From Polynucleobacter sp. HIN7 (GTDB taxonomy: Bacteria; Pseudomonadota; Gammaproteobacteria; Burkholderiales; Burkholderiaceae), in assembly GCF_030297595.1 (NCBI RefSeq), contig NZ_AP028138.1, forward strand, positions 1,426,001 through 1,490,000: a stretch of DNA of 64,000 nucleotides, read 5' to 3'. This document shows positions 13,531 through 62,994 of this stretch, in pieces. A program made the position numbers and the translations under genes. The notes beneath the pieces were generated by a model, which worked only from the letters and a program-made list of their open reading frames with translations, was not told where the DNA came from and did no database searches. How positions within the stretch are numbered: position 1 is the first letter of the stretch; every line of letters begins with the position of its first letter.

Positions 13531-15297
13531 TTAGCTTGCTTCGCTAAACTGCAGGCGATGCAAACCGGCATATAAACCGTTTTTGGCAATGAGCTCCCGA
13601 TGGGGGCCGTATTCCACAATCTCACCATGGTCGAGTACGGCAATATTATCAGCATGCTCGATGGTTGATAAGCGATGCGCAATTACTAAAGTGGTTCTAC
13701 CGGCCATCAGCCGATCGAGCGCCTCTTGCACTTGGCGCTCAGACTCTGAGTCCAGGGCAGAGGTTGCCTCATCCAGAATCAGAATAGGTGCATCTTTATA
13801 GATTGCGCGCGCAATCGCAAGGCGTTGTCGTTGACCACCCGATAAACGATTGCCGTTATCCCCAATTGGCGTATCAATTCCATCGGGTAATTCAGAGAGC
13901 AAGTTGGACAAATTAGCTGCCTCTAGCGCTTCAATCACACGACCGCGATCAATATCATCACCAGTGCTCGAGCCATACGCGACATTAGCTGCAATCGTGT
14001 CATTAAACAGAATCACATCTTGACTCACAAAAGCGATTTGTTTACGTAAATCTGTTAAAACAATCTCCTCAATTGGGATTTGATCGAGCAAAATCCGACC
14101 GGATTTGGGCTGATAAAAACGTGGTAACAAATTAACTAGCGTTGATTTACCTCCACCGGATGGCCCCACAAAAGCAATCACCTCGCCCGGCTTAACCGTG
14201 AGATTGATGTTACGTAAGGCATCTTTTCGACCCTCATCTTGGTTGTATGAGAAAGAAAGGTCTTCAAACCTAATTTCACCTTGAGCCTTCTCAAGCCGCT
14301 TGAGATTCGATGTTTGCGCCTTCTCCTCCTCAACCGGCTGATCAATTAACTGAAAGATCATCTCAGCAGCGGTGAGCCCCCGCTGCAAAGGCTGATTAAT
14401 ATCAGCTAAGTGCTTGAGCGGAGATACGATTAACAGCATCGCGGTAATAAAGGCTGCAAAGCTCCCAACTGTGACGCCTTGGCTAGCCGATTGCATGATG
14501 GCAATGACTAGGACGACCGATAAAGCCATCGAGGCAACTAATTGAGTGATCGGCTGATTTAATCCGCCGGCAACCGCTGCCTTCAGTGTAAACTTGCGTA
14601 ATTGCTCGGCTTTTTCCATAAAACGACGCATCTCATAGTCTTCACCGCCATGCACTTTCACTATCTTATGACCGGCTGCGGCCTCCTCAACTACATAGGC
14701 TAACTCACTGGTCATGCTCTGCTGCTGGCGATTGAGGCTACGCAAGCGTTTATTGATCTTGCTCATCACATAGGCAATGATCGGGAAAATCACAAAGACC
14801 ACCAAGGTTAAGCGCCAGTTCAAATACAACAAATACCCCATCAAACCAATCACGGTTAGCAGATCACGCACCAGACTGATCAACATACCGCCCATAATCG
14901 ATAGGACATTATTGACCTCGAAGACCACTGCATTAATTAAGTTCGAGGCCGTGGTTTTTTGGTAATACTCGGTCTTGGCACGTAAGAGTCTGGCAAACAT
15001 TTGTTCGCGCAGCTTCAACAAAATATTACTAATGACTTTGGTTAGCAAATAGTTCGAGAGAAATTGAGCTCCGCTACGCACAATAGCCAGACCGACAAGA
15101 AAGACTGGGACTAACCATAGCTGATCATTCATCTTCCCCGAAAAGCCATCATCCAAAAGGGGCTTCATGAGAGCGGGAATAGAGGTCTCCGACGCCGCCA
15201 CAAAGGCCATAGCCACTAATGAGCCAACAATTAGGCGGATATGGGGGCGCAAATAGCCAATTAATCGATTTAGGGCTTGACGGTCTGAAGCATTCAT
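13531..15297 (-). CDS. msbA: Lipid A export ABC transporter MsbA
   Basis: A homodimeric flippase that turns lipid A-core across the inner membrane. The 588 residues hold a six-helix transmembrane domain (about 20-310) and an ABC domain with Walker A GPSGGGKSTL, signature LSGGQRQRLAIARA, Walker B ILILDEATSALD and the H loop VIAHRLST. ATG 15297 (MNASDRQALNRLIGYLRPH) fits the family; the longer open frame runs into the divergent glycosyltransferase and is rejected. A CATAAT hexamer lies 7 bp before the start. Only 10 bp separate it from the divergent gene. Confidence 0.95.
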   Translation of the reverse strand: MNASDRQALNRLIGYLRPHIRLIVGSLVAMAFVAASETSIPALMKPLLDDGFSGKMNDQLWLVPVFLVGLAIVRSGAQFLSNYLLTKVISNILLKLREQMFARLLRAKTEYYQKTTASNLINAVVFEVNNVLSIMGGMLISLVRDLLTVIGLMGYLLYLNWRLTLVVFVIFPIIAYVMSKINKRLRSLNRQQQSMTSELAYVVEEAAAGHKIVKVHGGEDYEMRRFMEKAEQLRKFTLKAAVAGGLNQPITQLVASMALSVVLVIAIMQSASQGVTVGSFAAFITAMLLIVSPLKHLADINQPLQRGLTAAEMIFQLIDQPVEEEKAQTSNLKRLEKAQGEIRFEDLSFSYNQDEGRKDALRNINLTVKPGEVIAFVGPSGGGKSTLVNLLPRFYQPKSGRILLDQIPIEEIVLTDLRKQIAFVSQDVILFNDTIAANVAYGSSTGDDIDRGRVIEALEAANLSNLLSELPDGIDTPIGDNGNRLSGGQRQRLAIARAIYKDAPILILDEATSALDSESERQVQEALDRLMAGRTTLVIAHRLSTIEHADNIAVLDHGEIVEYGPHRELIAKNGLYAGLHRLQFSEAS

Positions 15298-15310
15298 ATA
15301 ATGAATTATG
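15277..15310. promoter_or_regulatory. Interlocked divergent promoters of msbA and the glycosyltransferase
   Basis: Plus strand: TTGACG (15277-15282), 14-bp spacer, TATAAT (15297-15302), 5 bp, then the transferase ATG at 15308. Minus strand: CATAAT (15310-15305), 7 bp, then the msbA ATG at 15297. Each -10 hexamer overlaps the other gene's start codon. Neither gene has room for a Shine-Dalgarno outside the other. Confidence 0.5.
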
Positions 15311-16081
15311 CCCACCTTATCAGTCATACTCATCACTCGGAACGAGGAAGCCAATCTTGGGGATTGTTTAACCTCCTTAGACGGGCTGGCTGACCAAATT
15401 GTAGTGGTAGACACCCAAAGCACTGACAAAACCCTTGAGATTGCCAAAGCCCATGGGGCGCTAATAAGCTCCCCCGACGATTGGCCCGGCTTTGGGCCCC
15501 AAAAGAACCGGGCTCTTGACTTAGCAAACTGCGATTGGGTCTTATCGCTTGATGCCGACGAGCGCCTGACCCCCGAACTGCGTGCAGAGATCAAAACAGT
15601 TCTTAGTCAACCGCATGCCGATTGCTATGCCATCCCACGCTTATCCTGGTACTGCGGACGTTTTATGCGTCATTCTGGCTGGACGCCTGATTATGTGGAT
15701 CGCCTTTTTAAGCGGGGCACTGCACGATTTTCCTCTGATTTAGTACATGAACGTTTAATCCCACAGGGACCCGTTCTCAAACTAAAGCATCAGATGCTGC
15801 ATTACAGCTTCATGAACCCAGAGCAAGTCAGGGCAAAAATGGAGCGCTACTCTACCGACTCCGCTCAACAGGCATTCGCCAAAGGTAAAACCGGCAGTCC
15901 AATCAAAGCCATCTTGCACGGAGCCTGGTCATTCATTCGAACTTATTTTTTGCGAGCTGGATTTCTAGATGGTCCTCAAGGCTTTTCCCTGGCATGCTCC
16001 AATGCACAAGGTACGTATTATCGATATATGAAGCTTTGGCGACTCCAGCAAATGGCACGCGCTCAGAATCAAAAGGGTTAG
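15308..16081 (+). CDS. Family 2 glycosyltransferase, LPS-core type (WaaE/KdtX-like)
   Basis: A 257-residue GT-A fold enzyme: MPTLSVILITRNEEANLGDCL, the metal-binding DADE motif (LSLDADERLTPELR near 80), and LSWYCGRFMRHSGWTPD, which resemble the KdtX/WaaE beta-1,4-glucosyltransferases that act on inner-core heptose. Substrate is inferred from resemblance and from msbA next door. The start ATG lies 5 bp after a perfect TATAAT, with no Shine-Dalgarno. It leads a three-gene run with the next two transferases. Confidence 0.82.
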   Translation: MPTLSVILITRNEEANLGDCLTSLDGLADQIVVVDTQSTDKTLEIAKAHGALISSPDDWPGFGPQKNRALDLANCDWVLSLDADERLTPELRAEIKTVLSQPHADCYAIPRLSWYCGRFMRHSGWTPDYVDRLFKRGTARFSSDLVHERLIPQGPVLKLKHQMLHYSFMNPEQVRAKMERYSTDSAQQAFAKGKTGSPIKAILHGAWSFIRTYFLRAGFLDGPQGFSLACSNAQGTYYRYMKLWRLQQMARAQNQKG

Positions 16082-16089
16082 GATCGCTT

Positions 16090-16884
16090 ATGTTCAAAAT
16101 CTCGATCCTACTTGCGACCTATAACTGGCCAGAAGCCCTGCGCTTTTGCCTCGAATCACTAGAAACTCAAACTGATCGAAACTTTGAAATCATCATTGCT
16201 GATGACGGCTCTAAACCAGAAACCGCAACACTCATACGCTCCATGAAGGAGCGCTCCAAGCACTCGATCCAACACTTATGGCAAGAGGATCAAGGGTTTC
16301 GGAAAACCATTATTCTCAATCAGGCCATTTTGGCTGCCCAGGGCGAATACCTCATATTCTTAGACGGGGACTGTATTGTGCAACCTGATTTTGTGAAGCG
16401 CCACCGTCAGCTTGCTAAGCCTCAAATGATGGTGACCGGCAGTCGCGTACTTCTAAGCGAATCATTAACCCAAAAGATCCTAAGTTGGCCGCGGTGGAAC
16501 TTCGCAGCTTTCAAAAGCAATTTAATTAGCTATCGCTTAAATGGTGGAATTAATAAGTTCTGGCCCATCGTACTGAAGCTGGGTCCGGGGGCGTGGCGCG
16601 TTTATCAAAAATTTGTTTGGCGCCGTATTAAAGGTTGCAATATGGCTTGCTGGAAAGAGGATGCGCTGACGATTAGTGGTTTTGATGAGTCTATGACTGG
16701 CTGGGGTCACGAAGATGCTGATTTTGTCTTTCGACTACAACACGCTGGTATTCGACGTCAATCTGGTGCATGGTCAACCGAAGTATTTCATCTATTTCAT
16801 CGAATCTCCGACCAGTCCAAGGCGGCTGAGAATGCAAAGCGAGTCCGCGAAAAAATTATGGCCAAGGCTGGTATACAGATATGA
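16090..16884 (+). CDS. Family 2 glycosyltransferase with a 7C-type C-terminal domain
   Basis: A 264-residue transferase. The N-terminal GT2 part (MFKISILLATYNWPEALRFCLESL, IIIADDGS, FLDGDCIV as the DxD site near 95) is followed by NMACWKEDALTISGFDESMTGWGHEDADF, the pattern of galactosyltransferase C-terminal domains. It is probably an LPS-core or surface-glycan enzyme, given its place between two core-type transferases; donor and acceptor are unknown. ATG 16090 lies 8 bp after the previous gene. The longer open frame starts inside that gene and is not used. Its stop overlaps the next start by 4 bp. Confidence 0.85.
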   Translation: MFKISILLATYNWPEALRFCLESLETQTDRNFEIIIADDGSKPETATLIRSMKERSKHSIQHLWQEDQGFRKTIILNQAILAAQGEYLIFLDGDCIVQPDFVKRHRQLAKPQMMVTGSRVLLSESLTQKILSWPRWNFAAFKSNLISYRLNGGINKFWPIVLKLGPGAWRVYQKFVWRRIKGCNMACWKEDALTISGFDESMTGWGHEDADFVFRLQHAGIRRQSGAWSTEVFHLFHRISDQSKAAENAKRVREKIMAKAGIQI

Positions 16885-18008
16885 ACGATCCTACCCGAGT
16901 TCTCTTCATCGCCACACGACAAATTGGCGATGTGCTGGTCACCACACCTTTAATTGAAGCAGCTCGTCGCATTTGGCCCAAGGCGCAATTTGATTTCTTA
17001 GGTTACCGCGGCAAGCTCGATATGCTCAAGGGTAATCCAGAAGTTCATGAGCTGCTTGAAACCTCCGAACATCCCAATCTTTGGGAATACCTCAAACTGT
17101 TTAATCGCCTATTCCAACGTTACGATTTAGCCATCATCACCCAACCTAGCGATCGAGCCTATTTTTTTGGTTCCCTTGCTGCGCTTCGCCGTGTTGGTGT
17201 AGTGGTACAAGATACCCCAAAGAGTCGGCAGAAAAGTGCATGGAAACGCTCCATCTGTATGCATTGGGTTCCAGTCGATTATTTTGAGCAACACGTCATC
17301 GTTGAAAAACTCAAGCTTCTCGAACCTTTCTACCGCGCTAAGGGTCTCGACCTTTTTGCAAATCCAATCTCGGTGACTCCTCCAAGCGGCGAAGCCCTTA
17401 CCCCGGTGTTACAAAGCCAACTTCGTCAACCGTATATTGTTTTACATCCGGGTCCGCTCAATGGCTATAAGCGCTGGCCTTTAGGGTATTGGGCTCAATT
17501 AATTAAAGATCTTGTGGCCTTAAAGTATCAAGTGGTCTTAAGTGCATCGCCTGCAGAGCAGGATCTCTCCCTTAACCGAGATATTCTGTCCTTGCTCGAT
17601 CACGAGGTCACCCAATTGGTCATTGACACTAAGGGGCAGCTCAACTTACCCCAAGTCAAAACCTTGTTAGATGGTGCGGCTTTATATATTGGTGTTGATA
17701 CATCAGTAACGCATCTTGCTGCCGCCTGCGAAATCCCAACCATTGCTTTGTTTGGACCTACACCACCTACCAATTTTGGGCCCTGGCCCAATGGTTTCAT
17801 TGGCGAGCGCCCTTATCAACTTCGAGGTCGAACCCAAATCGTCGGTAAGGTGTGCATTTTGCAAGGCCCGGGTGATTGTGTTCCTTGCCGAAAAGCGGGC
17901 TGCTTTGATACCGCCAATAGCAAAAGTGAGTGCCTTGACCTGCTAGAGCCCAGTCAAGTATTAGAAGCTACTAAAAAAATGCTGGATCGAAGTACGAGAT
18001 TATCCTAG
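16881..18008 (+). CDS. Family 9 glycosyltransferase (heptosyltransferase-like)
   Basis: A 375-residue GT-B enzyme of the heptosyltransferase family (WaaC/F/Q type), which add ADP-heptose to the LPS inner core. Seen: FIATRQIGDVLVTTPLIEAARR at the N-terminus, LHPGPLNGYKRWPLGYW near 190, and the donor-site motif YIGVDTSVTHLAAACEIPTIALFGP near 275. A cysteine cluster (CILQGPGDCVPCRKAGC, about 328-344) follows. It is closest in feel to WaaQ. The ATG overlaps the previous stop (ATGA). Its TAG stop interlocks with the tusA stop on the other strand. Confidence 0.85.
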   Translation: MNDPTRVLFIATRQIGDVLVTTPLIEAARRIWPKAQFDFLGYRGKLDMLKGNPEVHELLETSEHPNLWEYLKLFNRLFQRYDLAIITQPSDRAYFFGSLAALRRVGVVVQDTPKSRQKSAWKRSICMHWVPVDYFEQHVIVEKLKLLEPFYRAKGLDLFANPISVTPPSGEALTPVLQSQLRQPYIVLHPGPLNGYKRWPLGYWAQLIKDLVALKYQVVLSASPAEQDLSLNRDILSLLDHEVTQLVIDTKGQLNLPQVKTLLDGAALYIGVDTSVTHLAAACEIPTIALFGPTPPTNFGPWPNGFIGERPYQLRGRTQIVGKVCILQGPGDCVPCRKAGCFDTANSKSECLDLLEPSQVLEATKKMLDRSTRLS

Positions 18009-18250
18009 CGGCGCTTGACGTAAAACACCATCGTATCGCCCTCGTTATCTGTAGCGATCAGTTCATTACCAGTTTGTTTGCAAAAGGCGGGGATGTCATG
18101 CGTTGCGCCTGAATCGGTTGCCTTGAGTTTTAAGACCTCACCGGTTTGCATTTCAGCGAGGGTTTTCTTGGTACGCAGAATAGGCAAAGGGCAGTTCATG
18201 CCAATGGCATCCACTTCGCGATGAACCACAATCGAGCCTGCTTCACTCAT
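18005..18250 (-). CDS. tusA: Sulfurtransferase TusA family protein
   Basis: An 81-residue sulfur carrier. VDAIGMNCPLPILRTKKTL holds the single reactive cysteine in the CPxP motif, and the C-terminal half completes the SirA/TusA two-layer fold. In the E. coli route it takes sulfur from IscS for tRNA 2-thiouridine; here partners are not visible. ATG 18250 follows AGGAGAATGAG. It is probably transcribed after alaS, 38 bp upstream, and its stop overlaps that of the convergent transferase. Confidence 0.88.
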   Translation of the reverse strand: MSEAGSIVVHREVDAIGMNCPLPILRTKKTLAEMQTGEVLKLKATDSGATHDIPAFCKQTGNELIATDNEGDTMVFYVKRR

Positions 18251-18288
18251 CTCATTCTCCTATTTAATGCCATTTTAGCGACGAATTG

Positions 18289-20916
18289 CTAAATCCGCTC
18301 GGCAACCCAAGCATCAACGGCAGCGAGCGCTTTGCTTAAACCGCTTGGATCGCTACCACCAGCCATCGCCATTTCGGGCTTGCCGCCACCTTTGCCGCCC
18401 ACTTGTTGAGCCACAAAATTGACGAGCTCACCCGCTTTGATCCGATTGGTCGCATCACTGGTCACCCCAGCAATGAGACTTACCTTGCCGTCTTGAACGG
18501 ATGCCAAAACAATCGCGGCTGACTTTAATTTGGCCTTCAGAGCATCCATCGTGTCTCGCAATACTTTCGTATCAGCCGAATCTAATTGAGCTGCCAACAC
18601 TTTGATGCCTTGCAGATCTTTTGCTTGATTGACTAAATCATCGCCTTGGCTCGCAGCTAATTTTGCATTTACGCGCTCGAGCTCACGCTCAAGATGTCTG
18701 AGTTGATCTTGCAATTGACTAACGCGTTGCGGCAGATCATGAGGAGCCGTCTTTAACAACTGGGCCGCCTCTTGGATCTTCGACTCAAGCCCTTGAACAA
18801 AATCCATCACATTCGTGCCGGTCACCGCTTCAACCCGACGAATACCAGCAGCCACTCCACCCTCAGAGACGATCTTAAAACTACCAATATCACCCGTTCG
18901 CTTGACATGGGTTCCACCGCATAACTCTTTAGAAGATCCAATTTCAAGTACACGCACACGCTCACCATACTTCTCGCCAAATAGCATCATGGCTCCGGTC
19001 TTTTGCGCATCCTCCAAAGCCATCACATTGGCAGCAGTTGCAGTGTTGGTCAAAATCTCATGATTGACCATTTGCTCAATCCGAGTAATTTCAGCCTTCG
19101 TCAAGGGTGCAGTGTGGGTGAAATCGAATCGAGTCTTGTCGGCATCGACTAAGGAACCCTTCTGTTGCACATGATCGCCAAGGACTTCGCGCAAGGCTTT
19201 GTGTAGCAAATGCGTGGCGCTATGATTGCGCATCGTCTTAGCACGCAAGCTTGTATCCACGCGCGCCTCAACCATATCCCCAACCCTTAACTCGCCCTCT
19301 TGAAGTTCACCTTGATGTCCAAAGACATCGGCCTGAATCTTAAAAGTGTCCGCCACGATGAATTGCGATTGCTCAGTTCGTAACTCGCCACGATCGCCGA
19401 CTTGACCACCAGACTCTGCATAAAACGGGGTGCGATTCAGAACCACGACTGCACTTTCACCGGGCCGAATCGAGTCGACGGGGCTGCCATCACGATACAA
19501 AGCGGTGATGCGAGCATTCTCAATCAACACTTGCTCGTAGCCTAAGAACTGGGTAGGCTCGCCCCGGTAATCCAAGCCCTGTGCCATCTTAAATTTACCG
19601 GCAGCCCGTGCTTGATCACGTTGGCGTTGCATCGCCGCCTCAAAGCCAGCTGAATCGACACTGACTCCGCGCTCACGACAGACATCGGCGGTGAGATCGA
19701 GAGGGAATCCAAACGTATCATGCAGACGAAACGCGGTTTCTCCATCTAGAACAGATTGATTATTTTGAAGCGCAGATTCTAGGATCTCCATGCCATTGGC
19801 AATGGTCTGGAAAAAACGTTCCTCTTCTTGCTTAAGCACATCCATGACCCGCGCTTGCGCTTGGCGCAGCTCAGGATATGCATCACCCATTTCAGCGACC
19901 AAGGCGGGCACTAGCTGATGAAAGAAAGCCTGCCGTGCACCCAACTTATACCCATGACGGATGGCGCGTCGCGCAATGCGCCGCAATACATAACCGCGCC
20001 CTGCATTTCCAGGAATGACTCCATCGACCACAATAAAACTACAGGCACGAATATGATCCGCTATGACTTTCAGCGATGGGCTGTTTAAATCACAACCATT
20101 AGCCCCAGCACGATCAACCGCGTCTTTTGCTGCTTGCAGAAGATGGACAAATAAATCGATTTCATAGTTGGAGTGCACGTGTTGCAAAACAGCAGCAATT
20201 CGCTCCAAGCCCATACCGGTATCGACGCTGGGCTTGGGCAAGGGATGCATCTCGCCAGCCTCATCGCGATTAAATTGCATGAAGACGTTATTCCAGATCT
20301 CAATGAAACGATCACCATCTTCATCGGGACTGCCCGGAGGGCCGCCAGCAATTTCTGGACCATGGTCATAAAAGATTTCAGTACACGGTCCACAGGGCCC
20401 GGTGTCACCCATCATCCAAAAGTTATCGGAGGCGTACCGCGCACCCTTGTTATCGCCAATGCGCACAATACGCTCTTTCGGTACACCAATTTTTTTCTCC
20501 CAAATATCGTAGGCTTCATCGTCCTCGGCATAGACGGTGACCCATAACTTATCTTTGGGTAATTTGAAAACTTGGGTTAGGAGCTCCCAAGCAAATTGAA
20601 TTGCATCCTCTTTAAAGTAATCCCCAAACGAGAAATTACCAAGCATCTCAAAGAAGGTATGGTGACGAGCGGTATACCCAACGTTATCAAGGTCATTATG
20701 TTTACCGCCAGCCCGAATGCATTTCTGAGCCGTAGTTGCGCGTTGATATGGCCGCTTATCAAATCCCAAAAAGACATCTTTAAACTGATTCATCCCGGCA
20801 TTCGTAAATAGCAAGGTGGGATCATCACCAGGAACCACGGGGCTTGAAGCCACGATTTGGTGACCCTTGGAGGCAAAATAATCAAGGAAGGCTTGGCGGA
20901 TTTCGGAGACTTTCAT
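18289..20916 (-). CDS. alaS: Alanyl-tRNA synthetase
   Basis: Charges tRNA-Ala. All domains are present in 875 residues: the class II catalytic core ([35 protein letters not shown]), the tRNA-recognition region, the editing domain with [11 protein letters not shown] and [15 protein letters not shown] (zinc ligands), and the C-Ala domain ending [13 protein letters not shown]. The upstream promoter is unusually clear: TTGCCC, 17 bp, GATAAT, 7 bp, ATG. There is no Shine-Dalgarno, so the mRNA may be leaderless. Confidence 0.97.
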
Positions 20917-20923: not shown

Positions 20924-20952
20924 ATTATCGCATTGGCACAGAATTAGGGCAA
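20924..20952 (-). promoter_or_regulatory. Predicted alaS promoter (near-leaderless)
   Basis: On the minus strand TTGCCC (20952-20947) and GATAAT (20929-20924) are spaced by 17 bp. The ATG of alaS begins 7 bp after the -10 hexamer, so initiation at the usual distance would start the mRNA at or one base before the A of ATG. The -35, spacer and -10 all agree with a sigma-70 promoter. Confidence 0.65.
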
Positions 20953-23032: not shown

Positions 23033-23051
23033 GAAATCGACGCAATTCTCT

Positions 23052-23080
23052 AAGGCCCGCTGTTGCGGGCCTTATTTTTT
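23052..23080 (+). terminator. Rho-independent terminator after tctBA
   Basis: A 9-bp stem AAGGCCCGC / GCGGGCCTT with a TGTT loop is followed by A and six T. It ends the tctBA transcript and separates it from glnS, whose -10 hexamer begins 30 bp later. Confidence 0.9.
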
Positions 23081-23110: not shown

Positions 23111-23122
23111 TACAATAGTGGG
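23111..23122 (+). promoter_or_regulatory. Predicted glnS -10 element, leaderless arrangement
   Basis: TACAAT (23111-23116) lies 6 bp before the glnS ATG at 23123. No good -35 is visible and no Shine-Dalgarno fits between hexamer and start. The upstream neighbour ends in a strong terminator, so glnS needs its own promoter here. Confidence 0.5.
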
Positions 23123-24886: not shown

Positions 24887-25798
24887 TTACAAAGTTTTCA
24901 AATAGTCTTTAACCCGAGGATATTTCAGGGGACGTTTTAGTTCACCTATTCGTTGATTGCGAACTCGCCTTGATTCGGCCATGAATGACCACATCATGGG
25001 ACCCACCTGAGCTCGCACCTCATCCGGCGGCAATCGCAGGGGCTTCGGCAAATGCAGTGCGCAAGCGACCTCATCAAAGTAATCGCCCATTTTTTGCTCA
25101 CTACCATCGCATGCATTAATCACGCGCTGTGGTTTGCCGATAAACAATGCTGCACAAATGAGCCGAGCAAGATCATCTGCATGAATATGGTTCGAATACG
25201 CATCAAACGGCTCTTGCAAAGCAGGGGTGTTGTTTTTTAAGCGCTCAATTGGTAATCGATTAGGTCCGTAAATTCCGGGCACACGCAAAATAGTTAACGC
25301 AACGCCTTGTGAGGCCGCCCAAAAGCGAAGTGTTTGTTCTGCATCCACGCGCCTCTTCGCCCGCGGACTGGTGGGTTGTAATTGACTGGTCTCATCGACA
25401 AAATCACCATCGCGATTACCGTATACCCCGGTCGTACTGATGTAAACCAGGCGTCTGACAGATCGTCCCTGCTGGGATAAAATTCGTACTAAATTGCGGG
25501 TGCGTTGATCGTACTCACCATCTTGTGCTGGTGGTGCTAGATGAATGACTGTTGTTGCTAAATGGGCAATTCGCCATAAAGTCTCAGGATGGTCAAGATT
25601 ACCTTCAATGGGTGTGATGCCATGCTTTCGAAGTTCGGTAAAACGCTCAGGGCTACTGCTTAATGCGAAGAGCTTGGGTCGGCCTTGCGATTGAGCGAGT
25701 GCATTGCCTTGCAGCTGCTGCGCAACCCGAATACCGATATCACCGCATCCAATAATGAGGATACGGGGGCGACGAAATAGGCTGGTTTTGGAGATCAT
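24887..25798 (-). CDS. NAD(P)-binding SDR-family protein (YeeZ-like)
   Basis: A 303-residue extended short-chain dehydrogenase-like protein. The N-terminal Rossmann motif is ILIIGCGDIGIRVAQQL, with the atypical GxGxxG spacing seen in YeeZ/YfcH proteins; VYISTTGVYGNRDGDFVDE near 120 and LRVPGIYGPNRLP near 175 are epimerase-like. The usual YxxxK pair is not obvious, so catalysis is uncertain. No pathway is indicated by the neighbours. It diverges from the reductase gene and converges with glnS with no gap. Confidence 0.75.
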   Translation of the reverse strand: MISKTSLFRRPRILIIGCGDIGIRVAQQLQGNALAQSQGRPKLFALSSSPERFTELRKHGITPIEGNLDHPETLWRIAHLATTVIHLAPPAQDGEYDQRTRNLVRILSQQGRSVRRLVYISTTGVYGNRDGDFVDETSQLQPTSPRAKRRVDAEQTLRFWAASQGVALTILRVPGIYGPNRLPIERLKNNTPALQEPFDAYSNHIHADDLARLICAALFIGKPQRVINACDGSEQKMGDYFDEVACALHLPKPLRLPPDEVRAQVGPMMWSFMAESRRVRNQRIGELKRPLKYPRVKDYLKTL

Positions 25799-25836
25799 AG
25801 AATTAACATCGTAATGATTTATTGGGAGAAGTGGAA

Positions 25837-26928: not shown

Positions 26929-26940
26929 TATGATTGTGCT
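26929..26940 (+). promoter_or_regulatory. Predicted argD -10 element, leaderless arrangement
   Basis: TATGAT (26929-26934) is followed by TGTGCT and then the argD ATG at 26941. The -35 is weak (TTCCCT 18 bp upstream is the best I see). No Shine-Dalgarno is present. Confidence 0.45.
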
Positions 26941-33898: not shown

Positions 33899-34345
33899 TT
33901 ACAAAATGGCAATAATTTCTGCTTCAAAACTTAACTGTTTACCTGCTAAGGGATGGTTGAAATCAAACCACGCACCCTCTTCATTAATGGATTGCAATAC
34001 GCCTGCATATTGTGCACCGCTAGGCGCATTAAATTCAATCATATCGCCCGGGGCAAATTCCGGAACCTCATCGGTATTGGCTAACAATACATCCATACCC
34101 ACCCACTGGATGAGCTCTGGCTTGTGCTCCCCAAACGCGTCCTGTGGGCTTAGAACAGCTGAGCGCTTTTCACCCACTTTTGCTCCCAACAAAACCTTTT
34201 CAAAACAGGGGGCGAATTGACCCGTACCCAATTGCATCGTCGCCGGCCGATCGTCGAAGGTGTTGATGTAATCCTCCCCGCCAGGGAGGGTCAATCGATA
34301 GTTGATGGTCAAGAAAGAATCGGGGGAAACGGTAGGCTCACTCAT
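33899..34345 (-). CDS. fkpB: FKBP-type peptidyl-prolyl isomerase (SlpA/FkpB type)
   Basis: A 148-residue cytoplasmic-type prolyl isomerase with the split FKBP domain and inserted flap: [44 protein letters not shown] (seen in segments) and WFDFNHPLAGKQLSFEAEI, characteristic of SlyD/SlpA proteins but without SlyD's His-rich tail. ATG 34345 is used; the longer frame crosses a TACAAT element and the radC side. It is probably cotranscribed with ispH. Confidence 0.9.
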   Translation of the reverse strand: MSEPTVSPDSFLTINYRLTLPGGEDYINTFDDRPATMQLGTGQFAPCFEKVLLGAKVGEKRSAVLSPQDAFGEHKPELIQWVGMDVLLANTDEVPEFAPGDMIEFNAPSGAQYAGVLQSINEEGAWFDFNHPLAGKQLSFEAEIIAIL

Positions 34346-35077
34346 GCTGCCATTGTAGCCAGAGAGACACAGAATCACCCAATCTCGCAATGGCCAAAAG
34401 CACAACAGCCCCGTGAGAAATTAATCCGCCAAGGCGCCGCCTCCCTATCCGATGCTGAGCTCTTAGCCATTTTTCTGCGTTCTGGGGTTAAAGGTAAAAG
34501 CGCTGTTTCTTTGGCCCAGGATCTGCTCAGTCAATTTGGAGGGATGCAAGGCCTCGTGAATGCGCCTGTCTCTGATATTTACCGCTGCCATGGAATAGGG
34601 CCTTCAAAATGGGCTCAAATCAAAGCTGCCTATGAGCTGGTGAAACGCTGTCTTCATGAAAGCCTCTCTCAGCAAGCAATATTCTCATCCTCAACCCAAG
34701 TCAGGGAGTTTTTGCAAACCAAAATTGCCAGGCTGGAGCACGAGGTATTTCTTTGCCTGTACTTAGATAACAGTAATCGTTTGATAGAGTGCCAAGAGCT
34801 ATTTCGGGGATCGATTGATCAAACGGCCATTTACCCCCGAGAAATCATTAAAGAATGCCTCAATCGCAATGCCAGCGCCTTGGTGATTGCCCACAATCAC
34901 CCGGGGGGCAACCCACTTCCCAGCCCCAATGATGAGGCCATTACCCATGAACTGAGGCAAGCACTCCACTGGGTCAATATTGCACTCCTCGACCATTGCA
35001 TCGTGGCAAAGCATGGTTTTTTCTCATTTTCGGATGCGGGCCTTATAGAAAAGCCCCTAAATGAGAGTGTTTACTAA
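34217..35077 (+). CDS. radC: RadC-family (JAB/MPN) protein, start uncertain
   Basis: Homology begins around 34379 with [36 protein letters not shown] (helix-hairpin-helix part, seen in segments) and continues to the JAB metal site [15 protein letters not shown] near residue 240. RadC has no settled biochemical role. No ATG, GTG or TTG lies in frame near the expected N-terminus. The only canonical starts upstream are TTG 34217 and TTG 34232, deep inside the oppositely oriented fkpB. The coordinate given is the canonical open frame; the real start is probably downstream, perhaps a non-standard codon. Confidence 0.75.
34346..34357 (-). promoter_or_regulatory. Predicted fkpB -10 element, leaderless arrangement
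   Basis: On the minus strand TACAAT (34357-34352) is followed by GGCAGC and then the fkpB ATG. TTGGGT (34382-34377) is a possible but distant -35, with a 19-bp spacer. No Shine-Dalgarno precedes the start. Confidence 0.45.
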
Positions 35078-38352: not shown

Positions 38353-38985
38353 TTATGGGAAAGGAATGTACTGTAACTCAGGTGGGTCAACACTCACTCG
38401 ATTACCTGCAAGATGTAAACGCCCATTAATAAACCACTCAACTGCTAATGGATAGATTTGATGCTCCGTCTTTAAAACCCGAGCAGCTAAATCACTTGGG
38501 GTATCGGTGGGTAGGACAGGGACCTCACTTTGACAAATAATCGGGCCCTCATCTACGCCAGCGCTAACAAAATGCACTGTGGCGCCATGCACCCGATCTC
38601 CCGCCCCCAAGGCCCGTTCATGGGTATGCAAACCAGGAAAACGTGGCAATAAGGAGGGGTGAATATTCATCATGCGCCCCTCATAGTGCTCAATGAACCC
38701 TGGGGTTAGGATTCTCATAAAGCCAGCCAAAACCACAAGATCTGCACCAAAGGCATCAATTTGCTGCATCAATGCCTCGTCAAAGGCTTCCCGGCTTGGA
38801 TAGTCCCGGTGATCAATCACCGCGATAGGAATGCCAACCGACTTCGCAAACTCGAGCCCCTTGGCCTCGGGCTGATTTGCAATTAAGCCCGTAAATCGTA
38901 CATCCCATGATTTTGCTTTTGCGGCCTTGTAAATTGCCTCGAAATTAGAGCCGCGCCCTGAAATTAAAGAAACGATTGAATGCAT
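38353..38985 (-). CDS. purN: Phosphoribosylglycinamide formyltransferase (folate-dependent)
   Basis: Transfers a formyl group from 10-formyl-THF to GAR in purine synthesis. The 210 residues show VSLISGRGSNFEAI, FMRILTPGFIEHYEGRMMNIHPSLLPRFPG (formyl-transfer residues Asn, His; seen in segments) and HFVSAGVDEGPIICQ with the catalytic Asp. ATG 38985 lies 7 bp after TATATT. It diverges from ribF across 39 bp and is followed by the rRNA methyltransferase. Confidence 0.95.
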   Translation of the reverse strand: MHSIVSLISGRGSNFEAIYKAAKAKSWDVRFTGLIANQPEAKGLEFAKSVGIPIAVIDHRDYPSREAFDEALMQQIDAFGADLVVLAGFMRILTPGFIEHYEGRMMNIHPSLLPRFPGLHTHERALGAGDRVHGATVHFVSAGVDEGPIICQSEVPVLPTDTPSDLAARVLKTEHQIYPLAVEWFINGRLHLAGNRVSVDPPELQYIPFP

Positions 38986-39000
38986 GACCAACAATATAAT
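38986..39000. promoter_or_regulatory. Overlapping -10 elements for purN (minus) and ribF (plus)
   Basis: TATATT on the minus strand (38998-38993) ends 7 bp before the purN ATG. TATAAT on the plus strand (38995-39000) lies 24 bp before the ribF GTG and leaves room for a leader. The hexamers share four base pairs, so polymerase could occupy only one at a time. Confidence 0.5.
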
Positions 39001-47361: not shown

Positions 47362-47705
47362 GCTTCCTCCATAGTGCACTGCAATGGGTGACCCGCTTCA
47401 CGGGAACGTTCTATGACTTGATGGACCTTGGTCGAGGCCACATCGCGGGTATAGATACCGCAGACGCCTTTTCCTGCCAGATGCACTTGCAACATGATGC
47501 GAGTTGCTGTCTCTTGATCTTTATTAAAGTATTCCTGAATCACCATCACCACAAATTCCATCGGTGTGTAGTCGTCGTTTAACAACATCACTTTGTACAT
47601 GGCCGGCACCTTGACCTTTTCGGCCTGCCGTTCCAACAAAACCGTGTCTTCCTTAAATGGGGTGACTGGGCTTCCTCCGGGGGGTGTTTTGGAATTACGA
47701 CTCAT
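47358..47705 (-). CDS. clpS: ClpS adaptor protein
   Basis: N-end-rule adaptor for ClpAP, 115 residues. [17 protein letters not shown] holds the Asn-Asp-Asp N-degron site and [16 protein letters not shown] the hydrophobic pocket region. ATG 47705 ([13 protein letters not shown]) fits; the 16-codon extension crosses a promoter. It is coupled to clpA. Confidence 0.95.
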
Positions 47706-47740
47706 GAGAAACATTCTAACCACACCACAAAACTCTGCAA
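47706..47740 (-). promoter_or_regulatory. Predicted clpS promoter (near-leaderless)
   Basis: On the minus strand TTGCAG (47740-47735), a 16-bp spacer, TAGAAT (47718-47713), 7 bp, then the clpS ATG. No Shine-Dalgarno lies between. The 307-bp gap 47706-48012 holds this promoter and the cspA control region; I see no further gene in it. Confidence 0.5.
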
Positions 47741-47862
47741 TAAATCCACGCAAATCAAGTTTTCATCTGACGAAAACCATTCAAAATCAAGGCATATTTG
47801 TCATATTGGGTCGTTTTTATGAAAAAAAAGGGTTTTTCCTAGTGATATTGAGTCATATTTCC

Positions 47863-55626: not shown

Positions 55627-55640
55627 TTTCAACAGAGCGG

Positions 55641-56612: not shown

Positions 56613-57693
56613 GAATCGTTTGTGGCGCTCCCTCTGGACGCTGAGCAATATCACCTAACAACCAAGCATTTAGGCCTTGCTGTTCAATACTAGCAATCAC
56701 AGCTTTTGCTTCTTGCTGTTCAACGACAACCACCATCCCAATGCCGCAATTGAAGACACGCACCATCTCCGCATCAGCAACGCCGCCTTTCATTTGCAAC
56801 CAACGAAACAGCGGTGGCAGGCTCCATGAATCACGACGCAGCACTGCTTGGGTATTCTCTGGTAACACCCGTGGGATGTTATCCACTAAACCGCCACCCG
56901 TAATATGCGCCAATCCCTTCAAAGGATGTTGCGACATCACATTTAAAAGTTGCTTAACGTAGATTTGAGTGGGTGCCATCACTAATTCTTGCAAGGTCTT
57001 ACCCTCAATGGTCTCACTGGGTTTTGCGCCAGCTCGCTCAATAATCTTCCGAATTAAGGAATAGCCATTTGAATGCGCGCCACTAGATGCAATTCCAATA
57101 ATTGCGTCACCCGGCCGAATAGTGGAGCCATCAATAATTTTCGATTTCTCAACCACGCCAACCGCAAAGCCTGCCAAATCGTATTCACCCGGCGGATACA
57201 TGCCTGGCATCTCAGCAGTTTCACCCCCAATTAAGGCGCAGCCAGCTAACTCACACCCCTTGGCAATTCCGGCGATTACGGTGGCCGCTGTATCCACTGA
57301 TAACTTACCGCATGCAAAGTAATCGAGAAAGAAAAGAGATTCGGCGCCTTGGACCAAAATGTCATTCACGCTCATCGCCACTAAATCCTGGCCAATCGTC
57401 TCATGGGCATTCCACTCAAAAGCAAGCTTTAGTTTGGTGCCAACCCCATCGGTACCGGATACCAAAATGGGTTCTTTGTAGCGTTTGGGTACCTCAAATA
57501 AAGCCCCAAATCCTCCAATTCCCGCCAAAACACCATCACGCATGGTCTTTTTTGCTAGTGGCTTAATGCGGTCAACTAGAGCGTCCCCAGCGTCAATATC
57601 GACACCCGCGTCACGGTAAGACAAGCCTGGGCTTTTTGATGGATTAGTCATAAATGGGTCTTCAAAAATGGGTAAATCCTGCAGATCAGTCAT
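56605..57693 (-). CDS. purM: Phosphoribosylformylglycinamidine cyclo-ligase
   Basis: AIR synthetase of purine synthesis. [40 protein letters not shown] and [11 protein letters not shown] are conserved. ATG 57693 gives 362 residues; ATG 57651 ([14 protein letters not shown]) matches the E. coli length better. TCTAAC 7 bp before ATG 57693, with TTCATA 17 bp further up, is a weak promoter that would favour the upstream start. Divergent from the permease gene. Confidence 0.93.
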
Positions 57694-57734
57694 TTACATC
57701 GTTAGAATCTCTGAATTCTAGAGTATGAAGGCCC

Positions 57735-58724
57735 ATGGCTGAAATTTTTACCCCTTTTCTATTTGCATTTATTTTGGCTTACATTCTGAGGCCCTTGGTT
57801 CTGCGTCTTCAAAATCTAGGACTTGGTAAAACCCTTGCCAGCAGCATCGGCATGCTTTTTGGGCTTGGTGTTTTTCTCATCATCCTGTTACTGCTGATTA
57901 ATCTACTGCGCTATGAAATTCCTCTCATTAAGGCTCAGCTACCCATTTGGCTTCAAAGTCTGCAAACGTGGCTGGGGCCTAAATTACTCAGCCTGAATAT
58001 TGAGATCGATTGGCTCGCTTTGCGAGATGCGATTATGCAAAAATTGACTGCTCATTTTTCTGCAAACGCCAACCAAATATTAAGTACGAGTTTTGAAACC
58101 ATCTTAGCCTCTGGTAGCTCCGTACTTGGCGGCCTCGTCAATATTGTCTTGATTCTCTTCGTTCTTTTTTATCTGCTGATTGATTGGAAACACTTCTTTG
58201 AATTACTCAAGCAACTGCTTCCCATTCGCTATCAAGATACTGCGGTCAGGTTAGCACTAGAAACCGACTTGTTGCTATCGCAATACCTACGTGGGCAAAT
58301 GCTGGTGATTTTGATCATGGCGGTTTTCTATAGCGCTGGGTTAAGTTTGACAGGTATGCATGGAGCACTCGGTCTAGGCGTATTTACCGCCTTGGTGATT
58401 GTGATTCCTTATATTGGGATTGCACTGGGTCTGATTCTGGCGATCCTATCGGTCATTTTGCAATTTGGGCTTGGACCTGAACTCGTGATTGTGCTGGTCG
58501 TATTTGGGATTGGCCAAGTGCTCGAAGGATTTTTCCTAACCCCCCGTTTAGTAGGCGAACGAATTGGGCTTCACCCAGTGGCGGTTTTATTTGCTTTACT
58601 AATCTTCGCTAAATTATTTGGATTTTTTGGAGTGTTACTTGCCCTACCAGCTAGCGCGGTTGTGTTGGTATTGATCCGCTTTGCATGGTCGCAATACGCC
58701 CAAAGTACCTGGTATCAAAAGTAA
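57735..58724 (+). CDS. AI-2E family transporter (PerM/YdiK-like)
   Basis: A 329-residue membrane protein with about seven helices. LAYILRPLVLRLQ, VLFYLLIDWKHFFELLKQLLP and the C-terminal GFFLTPRLVGERIGLHPVAVLFALLIF (seen in segments) are family features. Members move diverse substrates, and the name does not prove AI-2 export. It overlaps hda by one base (TAATG). Confidence 0.88.
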   Translation: MAEIFTPFLFAFILAYILRPLVLRLQNLGLGKTLASSIGMLFGLGVFLIILLLLINLLRYEIPLIKAQLPIWLQSLQTWLGPKLLSLNIEIDWLALRDAIMQKLTAHFSANANQILSTSFETILASGSSVLGGLVNIVLILFVLFYLLIDWKHFFELLKQLLPIRYQDTAVRLALETDLLLSQYLRGQMLVILIMAVFYSAGLSLTGMHGALGLGVFTALVIVIPYIGIALGLILAILSVILQFGLGPELVIVLVVFGIGQVLEGFFLTPRLVGERIGLHPVAVLFALLIFAKLFGFFGVLLALPASAVVLVLIRFAWSQYAQSTWYQK

Positions 58725-59485
58725 TGGCCCCATCCGCACTGCCCCGTCAATTTGCGCTCGATATCAATCAAGCCCCTAAACCCTCATTGCACAATTTTTT
58801 ACCGAATGGTAATGAGGCACTGATTGACGCACTCAACCAGTCCATCGCTCGTTGGAACTCTCCTGCTAAGACCGCTTCCCACTCGATTGAGGGACGCTGG
58901 TTTTATTGGTGGGGAAGCGCTGGCGCCGGATGCTCTCATCTTCTTAGCGCTATCGCAAACCAAGCGCAAACGCTTGGGATGGGATCGATTCGCCTGCTAC
59001 CCAACGATCCGAGTACCTGGGTCGATGCCGAGCACAAACTCTCTGCAGCGGTAAACCCTGCACCGATCATCATGACCGTTGATGATGTGGATCAGCTGGA
59101 TACGCATCAACAAGCCAGCCTTTTTCGCTTACTCAATTTAGTACATGCCTCACCACACTCGTTTGTGTATCTATCTGGGCATGTGCCCCCTGCACAATTG
59201 ACATTACGAGAAGACTTGCGTACCCGTCTTGGCTGGGGGCTGATCTTTGAAGTTCATCCGCTGTCTGATTCAGAGAAGATCGAGGCGCTATCTCGCGCTG
59301 CAAAAGAGCGGGGTTTGATCTTATCCAACGAAGTTTTGCCTTGGTTGATTCATCATTTCTATCGAGATATGCCGAGTTTGATGGCATTACTCGATGCGCT
59401 CGATGCCTATTCTTTGGAGACCAAGCGCGCGATTACCCTACCCTTGGTTCGTGAACTCTTACAAATTTCTGGACACACCCCATGA
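58724..59485 (+). CDS. hda: DnaA regulatory inactivator Hda
   Basis: A single AAA+ domain related to DnaA that with the sliding clamp triggers DnaA-ATP hydrolysis. 253 residues. PRQFALDI near the N-terminus resembles the clamp-binding QLSLPL of E. coli Hda. The P loop is WWGSAGAGCSHLL, with Cys in the place of the usual Lys. Walker B is IIMTVDDVDQLD; the arginine finger region is DLRTRLGWGLIF. The start overlaps the permease stop; the open frame extends 13 codons upstream inside it. Often annotated as DnaA-like. Confidence 0.88.
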   Translation: MAPSALPRQFALDINQAPKPSLHNFLPNGNEALIDALNQSIARWNSPAKTASHSIEGRWFYWWGSAGAGCSHLLSAIANQAQTLGMGSIRLLPNDPSTWVDAEHKLSAAVNPAPIIMTVDDVDQLDTHQQASLFRLLNLVHASPHSFVYLSGHVPPAQLTLREDLRTRLGWGLIFEVHPLSDSEKIEALSRAAKERGLILSNEVLPWLIHHFYRDMPSLMALLDALDAYSLETKRAITLPLVRELLQISGHTP

Positions 59486-60162
59486 CTCGCATAGCTCTGT
59501 TTGATTTAGATCACACCCTCTTACCGTTTGACAGCGATTACGAATGGGGGCAATTTCTGGTGCGCTTAGGCGTTGTTGATGGGGAGCAATATGCCAAAGC
59601 CAACGATCAGTTTTACGCCGATTACAAAATAGGTAAGCTTGATATTGATGCATTCTTACGTTTTGCGCTAAAACCCTTGGCTGACAACCCGCGTACGCAA
59701 TTAGAGGGCTGGCATCGTGCATTTATGCAAGAGAAGATCGATGGACGTCTTCATCCACAAGCGATGAGGCTTGTCCAACAACATTTAGATGCGGGGGATT
59801 TGTGTTGTGTGGTGACCGCTACCAATAGTTTTGTCACTCGCCCGATTGTGAACGCCTTTGGAATTGAACATCTAGTTGCTACTGAACCGGCCACGGAGAA
59901 TAATCAACCAAAGGCAAATTTTACTGGCGGTATTGTGGGGGTTCCGAGCTTTAAAGAAGGAAAAATTACTCGAGTTAATGATTGGTTAGCCGGTTTGGGA
60001 TTACGCTTGGAATCCATCGAGCAAAGCTTCTTTTACTCCGACTCCATGAATGATTTGCCACTATTGGAAAGAGTAACCAATCCAGTAGCCACCAATCCAG
60101 ATGTGCGCTTGCGCGCAGAAGCTGAGAAGCGAAATTGGCCGATCTTAGAACTATTTCATTAA
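59482..60162 (+). CDS. HAD-IB family phosphatase (SerB-like)
   Basis: A 226-residue haloacid dehalogenase-type phosphatase: ALFDLDHTLLPFDSDYEWG (nucleophile Asp), VTATNSFVTRPIV (second motif) and YSDSMNDLPLLERV (metal site). It belongs to the HAD-IB group with phosphoserine-type phosphatases and CicA; substrate unknown. It overlaps hda by 4 bp and is followed by pcnB after 20 bp. Confidence 0.88.
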   Translation: MTRIALFDLDHTLLPFDSDYEWGQFLVRLGVVDGEQYAKANDQFYADYKIGKLDIDAFLRFALKPLADNPRTQLEGWHRAFMQEKIDGRLHPQAMRLVQQHLDAGDLCCVVTATNSFVTRPIVNAFGIEHLVATEPATENNQPKANFTGGIVGVPSFKEGKITRVNDWLAGLGLRLESIEQSFFYSDSMNDLPLLERVTNPVATNPDVRLRAEAEKRNWPILELFH

Positions 60163-60182
60163 ATTGATCCTAGCTCATCCTC

Positions 60183-61610
60183 ATGATCACTAAATTCATC
60201 GATCGCTTATTGCGTCGAGGCCCTCGCCCAAAGTCAGATCAATCTGGGGCCACCCTAGTAGCTCATAAGGTTTCAAAGAAAACCCATCGGATCGATCCTG
60301 CCTTACTTTCAAAAAATGCAGTCAAGGTCACTCATACCCTGCAACAAGCGGGCTATAAGGCCTATATCGTGGGTGGGGCAGTTCGCGATCTGGTTTTGGG
60401 GATCGCGCCTAAAGATTTCGATGTAGCAACCAATGCCACCCCCGAGCAAGTACAAAAATTATTTAGGCGCTCACGCTTGATTGGTCGTCGCTTTCAGATT
60501 GTCCATGTCACTTATTTTGGTAAAGAGCGCCCTGAAATTATCGAGGTCTCTACCTTTCGGGCAGTACTAGAAAGTGTGGGTGAGCATATTGCCGAGAGTG
60601 GTCGTATTCTGCGTGATAACGTTTGGGGTACTCATGCCGAAGATGCTGCCCGCCGTGACTTTACGATCAATGCAATGTATTACGACCCCAGCTCAGAAAC
60701 AGTGCTCGATTATCACGGTGGCATGGAGGATATCCGCTCTAAAACGATTCGCATGATCGGCAACCCAGCAAAACGTTACCGTGAAGACCCAGTGCGTATG
60801 TTGCGAGCGATTCGCTTTGCCGCTAAGACAGGTTTTCAGATTGAGCCCAAGACCCTTGCACCGATTCATGAGCTTGGCCAATTAATCCATGACGTTCCAA
60901 GCGCTCGCCTATTCGATGAGATTTTGAAGTTACTCATGTCAGGTCATGCTTGGGCCGGAATCCAGGCATTGCGTCACGCCAACTTGCATCATGGGCTTCT
61001 ACCATTTATGGATCGTGCACTCGAAGATGCGCAAGCCGCCCAATTTATTGAACAGGCGCTGCGCAATACCGATGAACGGATTCAAATGGGCAAATCGGTT
61101 TCCCCGGGCTTTCTGTTTGCAGCCCTACTTTGGCCCGATCTAGAGAAGGAGTGGCAAGTACTCCGAAATACTGGGATGCCACCCGTTGCAGCACTCCATG
61201 CTGCAATTGATGCCGTTGTTGCCCCCTCACATACCGGCATCACCATTCAGCGTCGCCATGAGGGTGATATGCGGGATATCTGGACCATGCAACCGCGTTT
61301 TGAAAAGCGAGTGGGGCGCTACCCCGAGCGACTGCTGGAGGTTCCGCGCTTTCGGGCTGGCTACGACTTCATGCTCCTACGCGGCCAAACAGGGTATTGC
61401 AAACCCGGTCTTGGGCAATGGTGGACAGACTTTTATCATGCGGATTTACCCGAACGTGAAGCCTTGCTGGCAAGTGCCAAGCTAGAGGATTTGGCTTCTG
61501 GCAAAACCCCATCAAACCCAAATAGAAACAGGCGCCGTAGGCCAAAAAAGCCAAAACAAAACCCTGATGCCCATGCCGATTCTGGGCCAAATGACGCCAA
61601 GCAAACTTAA
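60183..61610 (+). CDS. pcnB: Polynucleotide adenylyltransferase (poly(A) polymerase I)
   Basis: Adds poly(A) tails that mark RNA for decay. 475 residues. IVGGAVRDLVLGIAPKDFDVATNATPEQV (nucleotidyltransferase site, DxD) follows a basic N-terminal region; RRDFTINAMYYDP and RYREDPVRMLRAIRFAAKTGF (seen in segments) follow. The C-terminal 35 residues are strongly basic (NRNRRRRPKKPKQNP), likely for RNA binding. The pcnB-folK-panB order is common in proteobacteria. Confidence 0.95.
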   Translation: MITKFIDRLLRRGPRPKSDQSGATLVAHKVSKKTHRIDPALLSKNAVKVTHTLQQAGYKAYIVGGAVRDLVLGIAPKDFDVATNATPEQVQKLFRRSRLIGRRFQIVHVTYFGKERPEIIEVSTFRAVLESVGEHIAESGRILRDNVWGTHAEDAARRDFTINAMYYDPSSETVLDYHGGMEDIRSKTIRMIGNPAKRYREDPVRMLRAIRFAAKTGFQIEPKTLAPIHELGQLIHDVPSARLFDEILKLLMSGHAWAGIQALRHANLHHGLLPFMDRALEDAQAAQFIEQALRNTDERIQMGKSVSPGFLFAALLWPDLEKEWQVLRNTGMPPVAALHAAIDAVVAPSHTGITIQRRHEGDMRDIWTMQPRFEKRVGRYPERLLEVPRFRAGYDFMLLRGQTGYCKPGLGQWWTDFYHADLPEREALLASAKLEDLASGKTPSNPNRNRRRRPKKPKQNPDAHADSGPNDAKQT

Positions 61611-61653
61611 TTGATTTTCAGTAAAGTAAGCGCATATTCTTAGTAGGGAACTC

Positions 61654-62163
61654 ATGGCGCAGGCCTTTATTGGATTTGGTGGAAATATTGGTGATGCTCG
61701 GCAGAGCATCACCGATGCGATTGTCTGCCTGGCTCAGCATATTCAAATCCAGATCGTGAACAAAAGCTGTTTTTATCAAAGCGCGCCTGTCAATGCTGTA
61801 GGTGGTGATTACATCAATGCGGTTGTTGAGATTGATACTGAACTCAATCCCTATGGACTTTTGTATGTTTGCCAATCAATCGAGCATCAGTTTGGTCGCG
61901 AACGTCCTTATGCCAATGCACCCCGCACCCTTGATCTTGATATTTTGTTTTATGAAGGTATTGAGCAAAACCATTCTGAGCTCACCATTCCGCATCCACG
62001 CATTGCCGAACGCTCATTTGTGATTCTTCCTTTACTTGAAATCTGCCCCGATTTTTTCTTACCCAACCACGGCCCCTTAAAAAATCTTTTGCCGAATATT
62101 GCGCACCAACGCATCACCCGCATCACTTGCAAACACTGCGATTGCGACCAACAGTTGCATTAG
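61654..62163 (+). CDS. folK: 2-amino-4-hydroxy-6-hydroxymethyldihydropteridine pyrophosphokinase
   Basis: Pyrophosphorylates hydroxymethyl dihydropterin in folate synthesis. 169 residues with MAQAFIGFGGNIGDARQSI, FYQSAPVN, RERPYANAPRTLDLDILFY (HPPK signature) and IPHPRIAERSFVILPLLEI. TAGGGAA precedes the ATG. Confidence 0.96.
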   Translation: MAQAFIGFGGNIGDARQSITDAIVCLAQHIQIQIVNKSCFYQSAPVNAVGGDYINAVVEIDTELNPYGLLYVCQSIEHQFGRERPYANAPRTLDLDILFYEGIEQNHSELTIPHPRIAERSFVILPLLEICPDFFLPNHGPLKNLLPNIAHQRITRITCKHCDCDQQLH

Positions 62164-62166
62164 GCT

Positions 62167-62178
62167 TAAAATCGGCTT
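62167..62178 (+). promoter_or_regulatory. Predicted panB -10 element, leaderless arrangement
   Basis: TAAAAT (62167-62172) is followed by CGGCTT and the panB ATG at 62179. TTGCGA 19 bp upstream of the hexamer, at the 3' end of folK, is a possible -35. No Shine-Dalgarno precedes the start. Confidence 0.45.
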
Positions 62179-62994
62179 ATGAGTTATTTACAAGGCGATA
62201 AGCCAATCACGATCACGAAGTTATTGGCCATGCATGCCGATGGCGAGAAAATTGCGGTTCTAACCGCATACGATTCCACCATGAGCGCCCTTCTCAATCG
62301 CTGTGGAATTGAAGTGATTTTGATTGGAGACTCGCTTGGTAATGTAATCCAAGGTCATAGCAGCACTACCCCGGTTACCGTTGAGGAAATGGCCTATCAC
62401 ACGCAATGCGTTGCCCGGGCTAATCACCATGCATTCTTAATTGCCGATCTACCATTTGCGAGTTATGGAGACCCAGTGCAAGCACTGGAATCAGCCGCCG
62501 AGCTGATGCGCGCAGGGGCAGACATGGTCAAGCTTGAAGGTGGAAGTTGGCAGGTCGATATCATTCAATTTTTAGTCGAGCGCAGTGTTCCGGTTTGTGC
62601 TCACTTGGGGCTTTTGCCTCAGTCTGTCCACTTGCTTGGTGGTTATAAAGTCCAAGGCAAGTCAAAAGATGCCAGCGCTCTGATGTTTGAACAAGCGCAC
62701 GCCTGCCAAGCCGCAGGCGCTCAAATGCTTGTCTTAGAGGCGATCCCATCAGCGCTCGGAGAAAAAATTACTCAATCACTTCATATTCCGACGATTGGGA
62801 TTGGAGCAGGGCCAAATTGCTCCGGACAAGTTTTAGTACTGCCAGATCTACTCGGAATTAGCCCTGGCAAAGCGCCGAAGTTTGTGAAAGACTTTATGGC
62901 TGGTAGCAGCTCGATTGAGGCAGCAATTAAAGCCTATGTTCGTGAAGTCAAGTCCGGAAAATTTCCTGGACCTGAGCACTGCTTTGCCTCTTAA
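62179..62994 (+). CDS. panB: 3-methyl-2-oxobutanoate hydroxymethyltransferase
   Basis: First step of pantothenate synthesis. 271 residues: [46 protein letters not shown] (metal Asp; seen in segments), [32 protein letters not shown] and [18 protein letters not shown]. The stop codon interlocks with that of dnaJ (TTAA). coaBC at 43 kb acts later in the same pathway. Confidence 0.96.

Follow-up and report, generated by a model that had tools for sequence, protein, structure and literature searches.

The stretch of the Polynucleobacter sp. HIN7 genome analysed here (the window; 64,000 bases, positions 1426001–1490000 of G000:C1 in a genome of 1,795,157 bases) raises the question of why the ATG codons of nine genes, among them alaS, glnS and purN, lie immediately behind hexamers that resemble a −10 box. 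We predict that a modest share of the genes of this genome, including several housekeeping enzymes, is leaderless, with a promoter box that should put the mRNA 5′ end at the start codon. This mode of translation initiation is known but has received little study. Judged from the DNA sequence, we put the probability that some of the genes are expressed from leaderless mRNAs at about 0.82. A sigma-70-type −10 box ~6 nucleotides (nt) ahead of the ATG would cause RNA polymerase to initiate at the A of the AUG, and ribosomes would start on this 5′-terminal AUG without Shine–Dalgarno pairing.

Genes were assigned with a purpose-written caller that relies on codon statistics and start-codon type and uses no upstream motif; on four annotated stretches of Escherichia coli K-12 it recovered 158 of 168 coding sequences. 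We counted a strict pattern, TANDAT, a looser one, TANNNT, and for the window itself a loose pattern (NANDAT or TATATT), and defined spacing as the number of nt between hexamer and start codon. The pooled own-genome sample comprised the window and 40 stretches (864 kb, 743 genes having sufficient upstream sequence). A second set of stretches (400 kb), fetched after the first result, served as the held-out sample. Window-free counts omit the window, because the nine-gene finding originated there.

The strict motif showed a sharp peak at one spacing. At 5, 6 and 7 nt in the pooled sample, TANDAT preceded 3, 20 and 8 of 336 first-of-unit ATG genes against a background of 1.93 per position (P = 2e-14 at spacing 6), so that the peak is not spread evenly across 5–7 but sits at 6, where sigma-70 would place +1 on the A of the ATG. 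Without the window the corresponding counts were 2, 18 and 8 of 313 first-of-unit ATG genes (P = 1e-12 at spacing 6) and 3, 30 and 9 of all 594 ATG genes (42 in total; background 2.47 per position; P = 1e-22), an excess over background at 5–7 of ~35 genes or ~6%. The −10 enrichment at 5–7 bp on which the original prediction had staked itself is thus present outside the window. Within it, the loose pattern was found at these spacings in 2, 5 and 4 of 51 called ATG starts, with about one at each other position. Operon-internal ATG genes gave 1, 4 and 0 of 205 (0.27 per position). The motif was restricted to ATG starts: among 58 first genes beginning with GTG or TTG, spacings 5–7 held no TANDAT and a single TANNNT (spacing 5). 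In annotated E. coli the strict motif was missing at spacing 6 (0/147 ATG genes) and occurred once at spacing 5. Three other Polynucleobacter genomes, pooled, had TANDAT at spacing 6 in 11 of 281 first ATG genes (background 1.5; P = 6e-7), and five genomes outside the genus had it in 4 of 387 (P = 0.2 for spacings 5–7). All four of the latter belong to G085, another family member (L221–L230), in which they make up 4 of 99 first ATG genes against 0.43 per position.

Shine–Dalgarno motifs (GGAG, GAGG or AGGA) were depleted ahead of the motif-bearing genes: in the pooled sample 2/31 of them had one, against 75/305 of the remaining first genes (p = 0.023). Pyrimidines at −1 were more frequent (25/31 versus 179/305, p = 0.02). 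The set has what is expected of leaderless genes, namely a −10 that would place +1 at the start codon, a general lack of Shine–Dalgarno sequences and an AUG start. The 3′ region of the 16S rRNA reads GGATCACCTCCTTT, with an intact anti-Shine–Dalgarno sequence, so Shine–Dalgarno initiation is available and can coexist with a leaderless route. Annotation covered 30 genes outside the window: 29 TANDAT genes out of the 42, most of them having the box at spacing 6, and a single TANNNT partner. Each matches a Pfam family and most are housekeeping enzymes, a tally for which no background set was computed.

All nine hexamers and spacings described in the original prediction were re-read in the sequence as claimed. 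Seven fit TANNNT, and those of msbA (CATAAT) and alaS (GATAAT) lack the first T. MsbA, AlaS, GlnS, ArgD, PurN, ClpS and PanB score above the curated NCBIfam cut-off, the FkpB-like and glycosyltransferase genes below it only. The motif-free caller chose the predicted start in 7/9 genes; it began fkpB at 34237 and clpS at a TTG at 47753, and for both the relatives retain the predicted starts. Gene finders tuned to Shine–Dalgarno sites may likewise misplace leaderless starts.

We then compared the boxes with those of relatives, scoring an in-frame ATG or GTG at most 8 codons from the expected start together with TANNNT, C/GATAAT or TATATT at 5–7. The AlaS of the window is 80–81% identical to its counterparts in nine records, seven from named Polynucleobacter and two from uncultured beta-proteobacteria, and at most 76% identical to those of other listed lineages. 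The alaS box occurs in 12/12 close relatives (GATAAT in 11, CATAAT in one), always at the expected start. For fkpB it is present in 23/23 (TACAAT in 21, TAAAAT in two; 20 at the expected start, the codon being GTG in L311), and mean identity to the consensus is 0.94 in the hexamer region versus 0.61 at −40 to −21. The purN TATATT is kept in 23/23 (spacing 6 in 18, 7 in five; all 23 at the expected start) and the clpS box in 22/23 (20 at the expected start). TACAAT-6 precedes glnS in 8/8 relatives, none at the expected start, because the N-terminus differs in length and the ATG of the relatives lies 6–7 codons further up. For panB, TANNNT at 5–7 was found in 14/17, all 14 at the expected start, and took the degenerate form TAAACT-6 in 10. 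Counting the glycosyltransferase and msbA through the 23-bp element described below, the box is conserved for eight of the nine genes, the exception being argD. When reciprocal orthologues from three genomes of the genus were compared without the window, TANDAT was kept in 4/12 versus 3/142 (p = 7e-4) and TANNNT in 8/18 versus 11/136 (p = 2.5e-4). Together, the enrichment outside the window and this conservation support the leaderless interpretation of the original prediction. As a separate observation, in L010, a Burkholderiaceae metagenome-assembled genome whose AlaS is 72% identical, GATAAT lies 7 nt ahead of the alaS ATG and TACAAT 8 nt ahead of an in-frame glnS ATG.

Table 1. Positions of the −10 boxes and associated features in the window
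Feature	Position	Strand	Remark
23-bp msbA/glycosyltransferase element	15290..15312		spans both start codons
−10 TATAAT of glycosyltransferase	15297..15302	+	ATG 15308, spacing 5
−10-like CATAAT of msbA	15305..15310	-	ATG at 15297, spacing 7
−10-like GATAAT of alaS	20924..20929	-	ATG at 20916, spacing 7
−35-like TTGCCC of alaS	20947..20952	-	17 bp before −10; conserved in 12-relative consensus
Hairpin with T run ahead of glnS, resembling an intrinsic terminator	23051..23080	+	10-bp stem, z −3.3
−10 TACAAT of glnS	23111..23116	+	ATG 23123, spacing 6
−10-like TATGAT of argD	26929..26934	+	ATG 26941, spacing 6
−10 TACAAT of FkpB-like gene	34352..34357	-	ATG at 34345, spacing 6
−10 TATATT of purN	38993..38998	-	ATG at 38985, spacing 7
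−10 TAGAAT of clpS	47713..47718	-	ATG at 47705, spacing 7
−10 TAAAAT of panB	62167..62172	+	ATG 62179, spacing 6

Several observations count against leaderless initiation. There is no −35 consensus: in the first sample, at least four of six matches to TTGACA were found at spacers of 15–19 in 7/31 motif genes, compared with 8/31 and 4/31 in control windows at 21–25 and 8–12. Apart from alaS, the set does not show a full sigma-70 promoter with a −35 at 15–19 bp before the −10, and the sole hint of one is a T at the first −35 position in 23/47 (17-bp spacer; P = 0.002, for that column alone). The held-out sample was weaker, with TANDAT at 5, 6 and 7 nt in 0, 3 and 6 of 151 against 1.07 per position (P = 5.5e-3 for 5–7). 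It had the motif at spacing 6 in 3/103 operon-internal genes, and on its own gave no significant difference in Shine–Dalgarno motifs (1/9 versus 37/142) or −1 pyrimidines (7/9 versus 85/142). The called start equalled the annotated start in just 125 of the 158 E. coli genes, although such errors would be expected to dilute a motif peak, not to create one. A whole-genome search for TATAATN{5,7}ATG that was not anchored to genes showed no enrichment (23 matches versus 22 in the reversed control), and the argD box was found in only 1/8 relatives, none at the expected start. The last two points, and a TANDAT background of ~0.6% per position (~2%, or 7.37 of 336, for TANNNT), are what chance hexamers in AT-rich upstream DNA would give. 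For the set as a whole this explanation is largely refuted by the window-free single-spacing peak and the orthologue test, and we consider it very improbable; argD, or the TAGGAT at 16090 of the window (spacing 5), may individually be chance matches. The argD layout itself appears to have switched: in a comparison with L001–L008 and L053, the −10 adjoins the ATG in this genome and L003, and a GATAATAGA-like box lies further upstream in the seven other relatives.

The lack of a −35 consensus would better suit boxes that are real but secondary, most mRNA being leadered and arising from upstream promoters or read-through, and several motif genes do lie close behind same-strand genes (5/205 ATG genes with a gap below 15, 9/79 with a gap of 15–40). 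The Shine–Dalgarno depletion, the sharp spacing and the conservation of the boxes make this unlikely, as does the terminator-like hairpin upstream of glnS. The hairpin with its T run ends ~40 nt ahead of the ATG and so leaves room of ~40 nt for a glnS promoter, and TACAAT-6-ATG is, by eye, the sole −10-like box in that interval. Terminators ahead of same-strand motif genes (3/21 versus 7/213) were too few to use, and at gathering score Rfam found nothing but one tRNA in the window. There is also scant probability that the hexamers act in translation, as A/T-rich enhancers on leadered mRNAs, rather than as promoter boxes. A/T-rich signals other than Shine–Dalgarno sequences are reported from other groups (PMC3160421), and unselected upstream regions of first genes are mildly A-rich close to the start; TANNNT at one spacing, the −1 pyrimidine and the absence at GTG/TTG starts better suit a promoter.

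Two such boxes lie close together at msbA and the glycosyltransferase gene. The divergent start codons of the two genes are 10 bp apart, with the A bases 11 bp apart; the glycosyltransferase TATAAT overlaps the msbA start codon and the msbA CATAAT overlaps the glycosyltransferase ATG. Among 121 genus genomes, 99 have the 23-bp element with at most two mismatches (94 exact, five with one mismatch), and in a draw from the family it was found with at most three mismatches in 14/15 genus genomes and 0/135 genomes of other genera. In an alignment of 12 sequences the element falls within a 26-bp invariant run; outside this run, 37/82 upstream and 25/29 downstream (glycosyltransferase coding) columns are also invariant. 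The plasmid collection held no DNA match to the region. Tentatively, we read the element as a bidirectional promoter that would begin transcription at the two start codons, each −10 overlapping the opposite ATG; 16 bp would carry both boxes and both translation starts, exact across most of the genus. We find it doubtful that the element is mainly a regulator-binding site, as might be suggested by the inverted repeat ATTCAT-ATA-ATGAAT within it and by conservation beyond the two hexamers. The 15-bp core has one exact genome copy and eight other sites with 1–2 mismatches, and the single-mismatch site precedes another TATAAT-6-ATG. Moreover, of four inspected genomes without the element, three closely similar ones (G005, G006, G009) have a longer, unrelated spacer and still carry −10-like boxes for both genes: TAACAT 6 nt ahead of the glycosyltransferase ATG, and TACGAT 7 nt ahead of the ATG of a retained divergent frame that looks, by eye, like an MsbA N-terminus. 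No divergent frame was picked up in this region of the fourth genome, G003. A second msbA-like element at G000:C1:639911 was rejected, as its leftward frame ends after 32 codons and no divergent gene is seen.

Cupriavidus metallidurans and Burkholderia cenocepacia belong to the same family as Polynucleobacter in the NCBI sense. The original prediction had called leaderless mRNAs rare in Betaproteobacteria, which is too strong: they are documented in both species and in 9/71 beta genomes (PMC7563307, PMC4603805, PMC3160421). In C. metallidurans they make up 4.67% of primary transcription start sites (TSSs; PMC7563307), similar to the share found here, and B. cenocepacia has 72 + 42 leaderless transcripts, 24 of them tRNAs (PMC4603805). 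Both sets are enriched in transcription functions, whereas our 30 annotated genes include a single histidine kinase and lack DNA-binding regulator domains, counts for which no background was computed. The 9/71 genomes are those positive for TA-led genes, averaging 6.8%, in which a TA-like signal ~10 bp upstream of the start replaces the Shine–Dalgarno sequence, with a TATAAT-like form in mid-GC groups (PMC3160421; Zheng et al. 2011). The arrangement also resembles the −10-adjacent open reading frames (ORFs) of Deinococcus-Thermus, whose −10 motif lies 6–7 bp ahead of the ORF; these account for almost one third of genes in D. radiodurans, (PMC12340547), compared with ~6% of ATG genes above background here. 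Neither the main text of PMC3160421 nor the passages of PMC10783764 that were examined mention Polynucleobacter, and the literature searched contained no paper naming both Polynucleobacter and leaderless genes. Leaderless genes are of a known kind, Betaproteobacteria included; the novelty appears to lie in the genus and in the conserved element shared by msbA and the glycosyltransferase gene. They add a small-genome betaproteobacterial genus in which leaderless initiation may serve housekeeping genes (alaS, glnS, purN), and a minimal conserved DNA for studying divergent leaderless initiation.

In E. coli bidirectional promoters the commonest distance between divergent starts is 18 bp, and distances of 10 and 23 bp are frequent as well (PMC12825309). 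Divergent TSSs at about these distances around shared or touching −10s would fit the geometry of the msbA/glycosyltransferase pair and of a rhodanese/phosphatase pair at L099:7687-7710 (gap 22 bp; start-codon first bases 23 bp apart); the E. coli TSSs were mapped, whereas those here are predicted and would coincide with the start codons. A scan for the double −10 layout gave seven matches, of which 3/7 had both starts called; 20 Markov resamplings averaged 2.4 matches with a maximum of 5, and the reversed sequence gave one. Short divergent gaps were considered as a general home of leaderless genes and rejected, since TANNNT at 5–7 preceded 9/14 genes in pairs 20–40 bp apart in the first sample and only 1/4 in the held-out sample. 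Like the L099 pair, the MoCF/PmbA-TldD pair at L086:2497-2524 (gap 26 bp) and the cobalamin adenosyltransferase/FAD oxidase pair at L097:8738-8773 (gap 34 bp) have −10-like boxes 6 nt ahead of both ATGs. At 24887-25822 of the window the divergent gap is 23 bp; in the matching loci of seven relatives it is 30–36 bp, and the minus-strand gene there has TANNNT 7 nt ahead of its called ATG.

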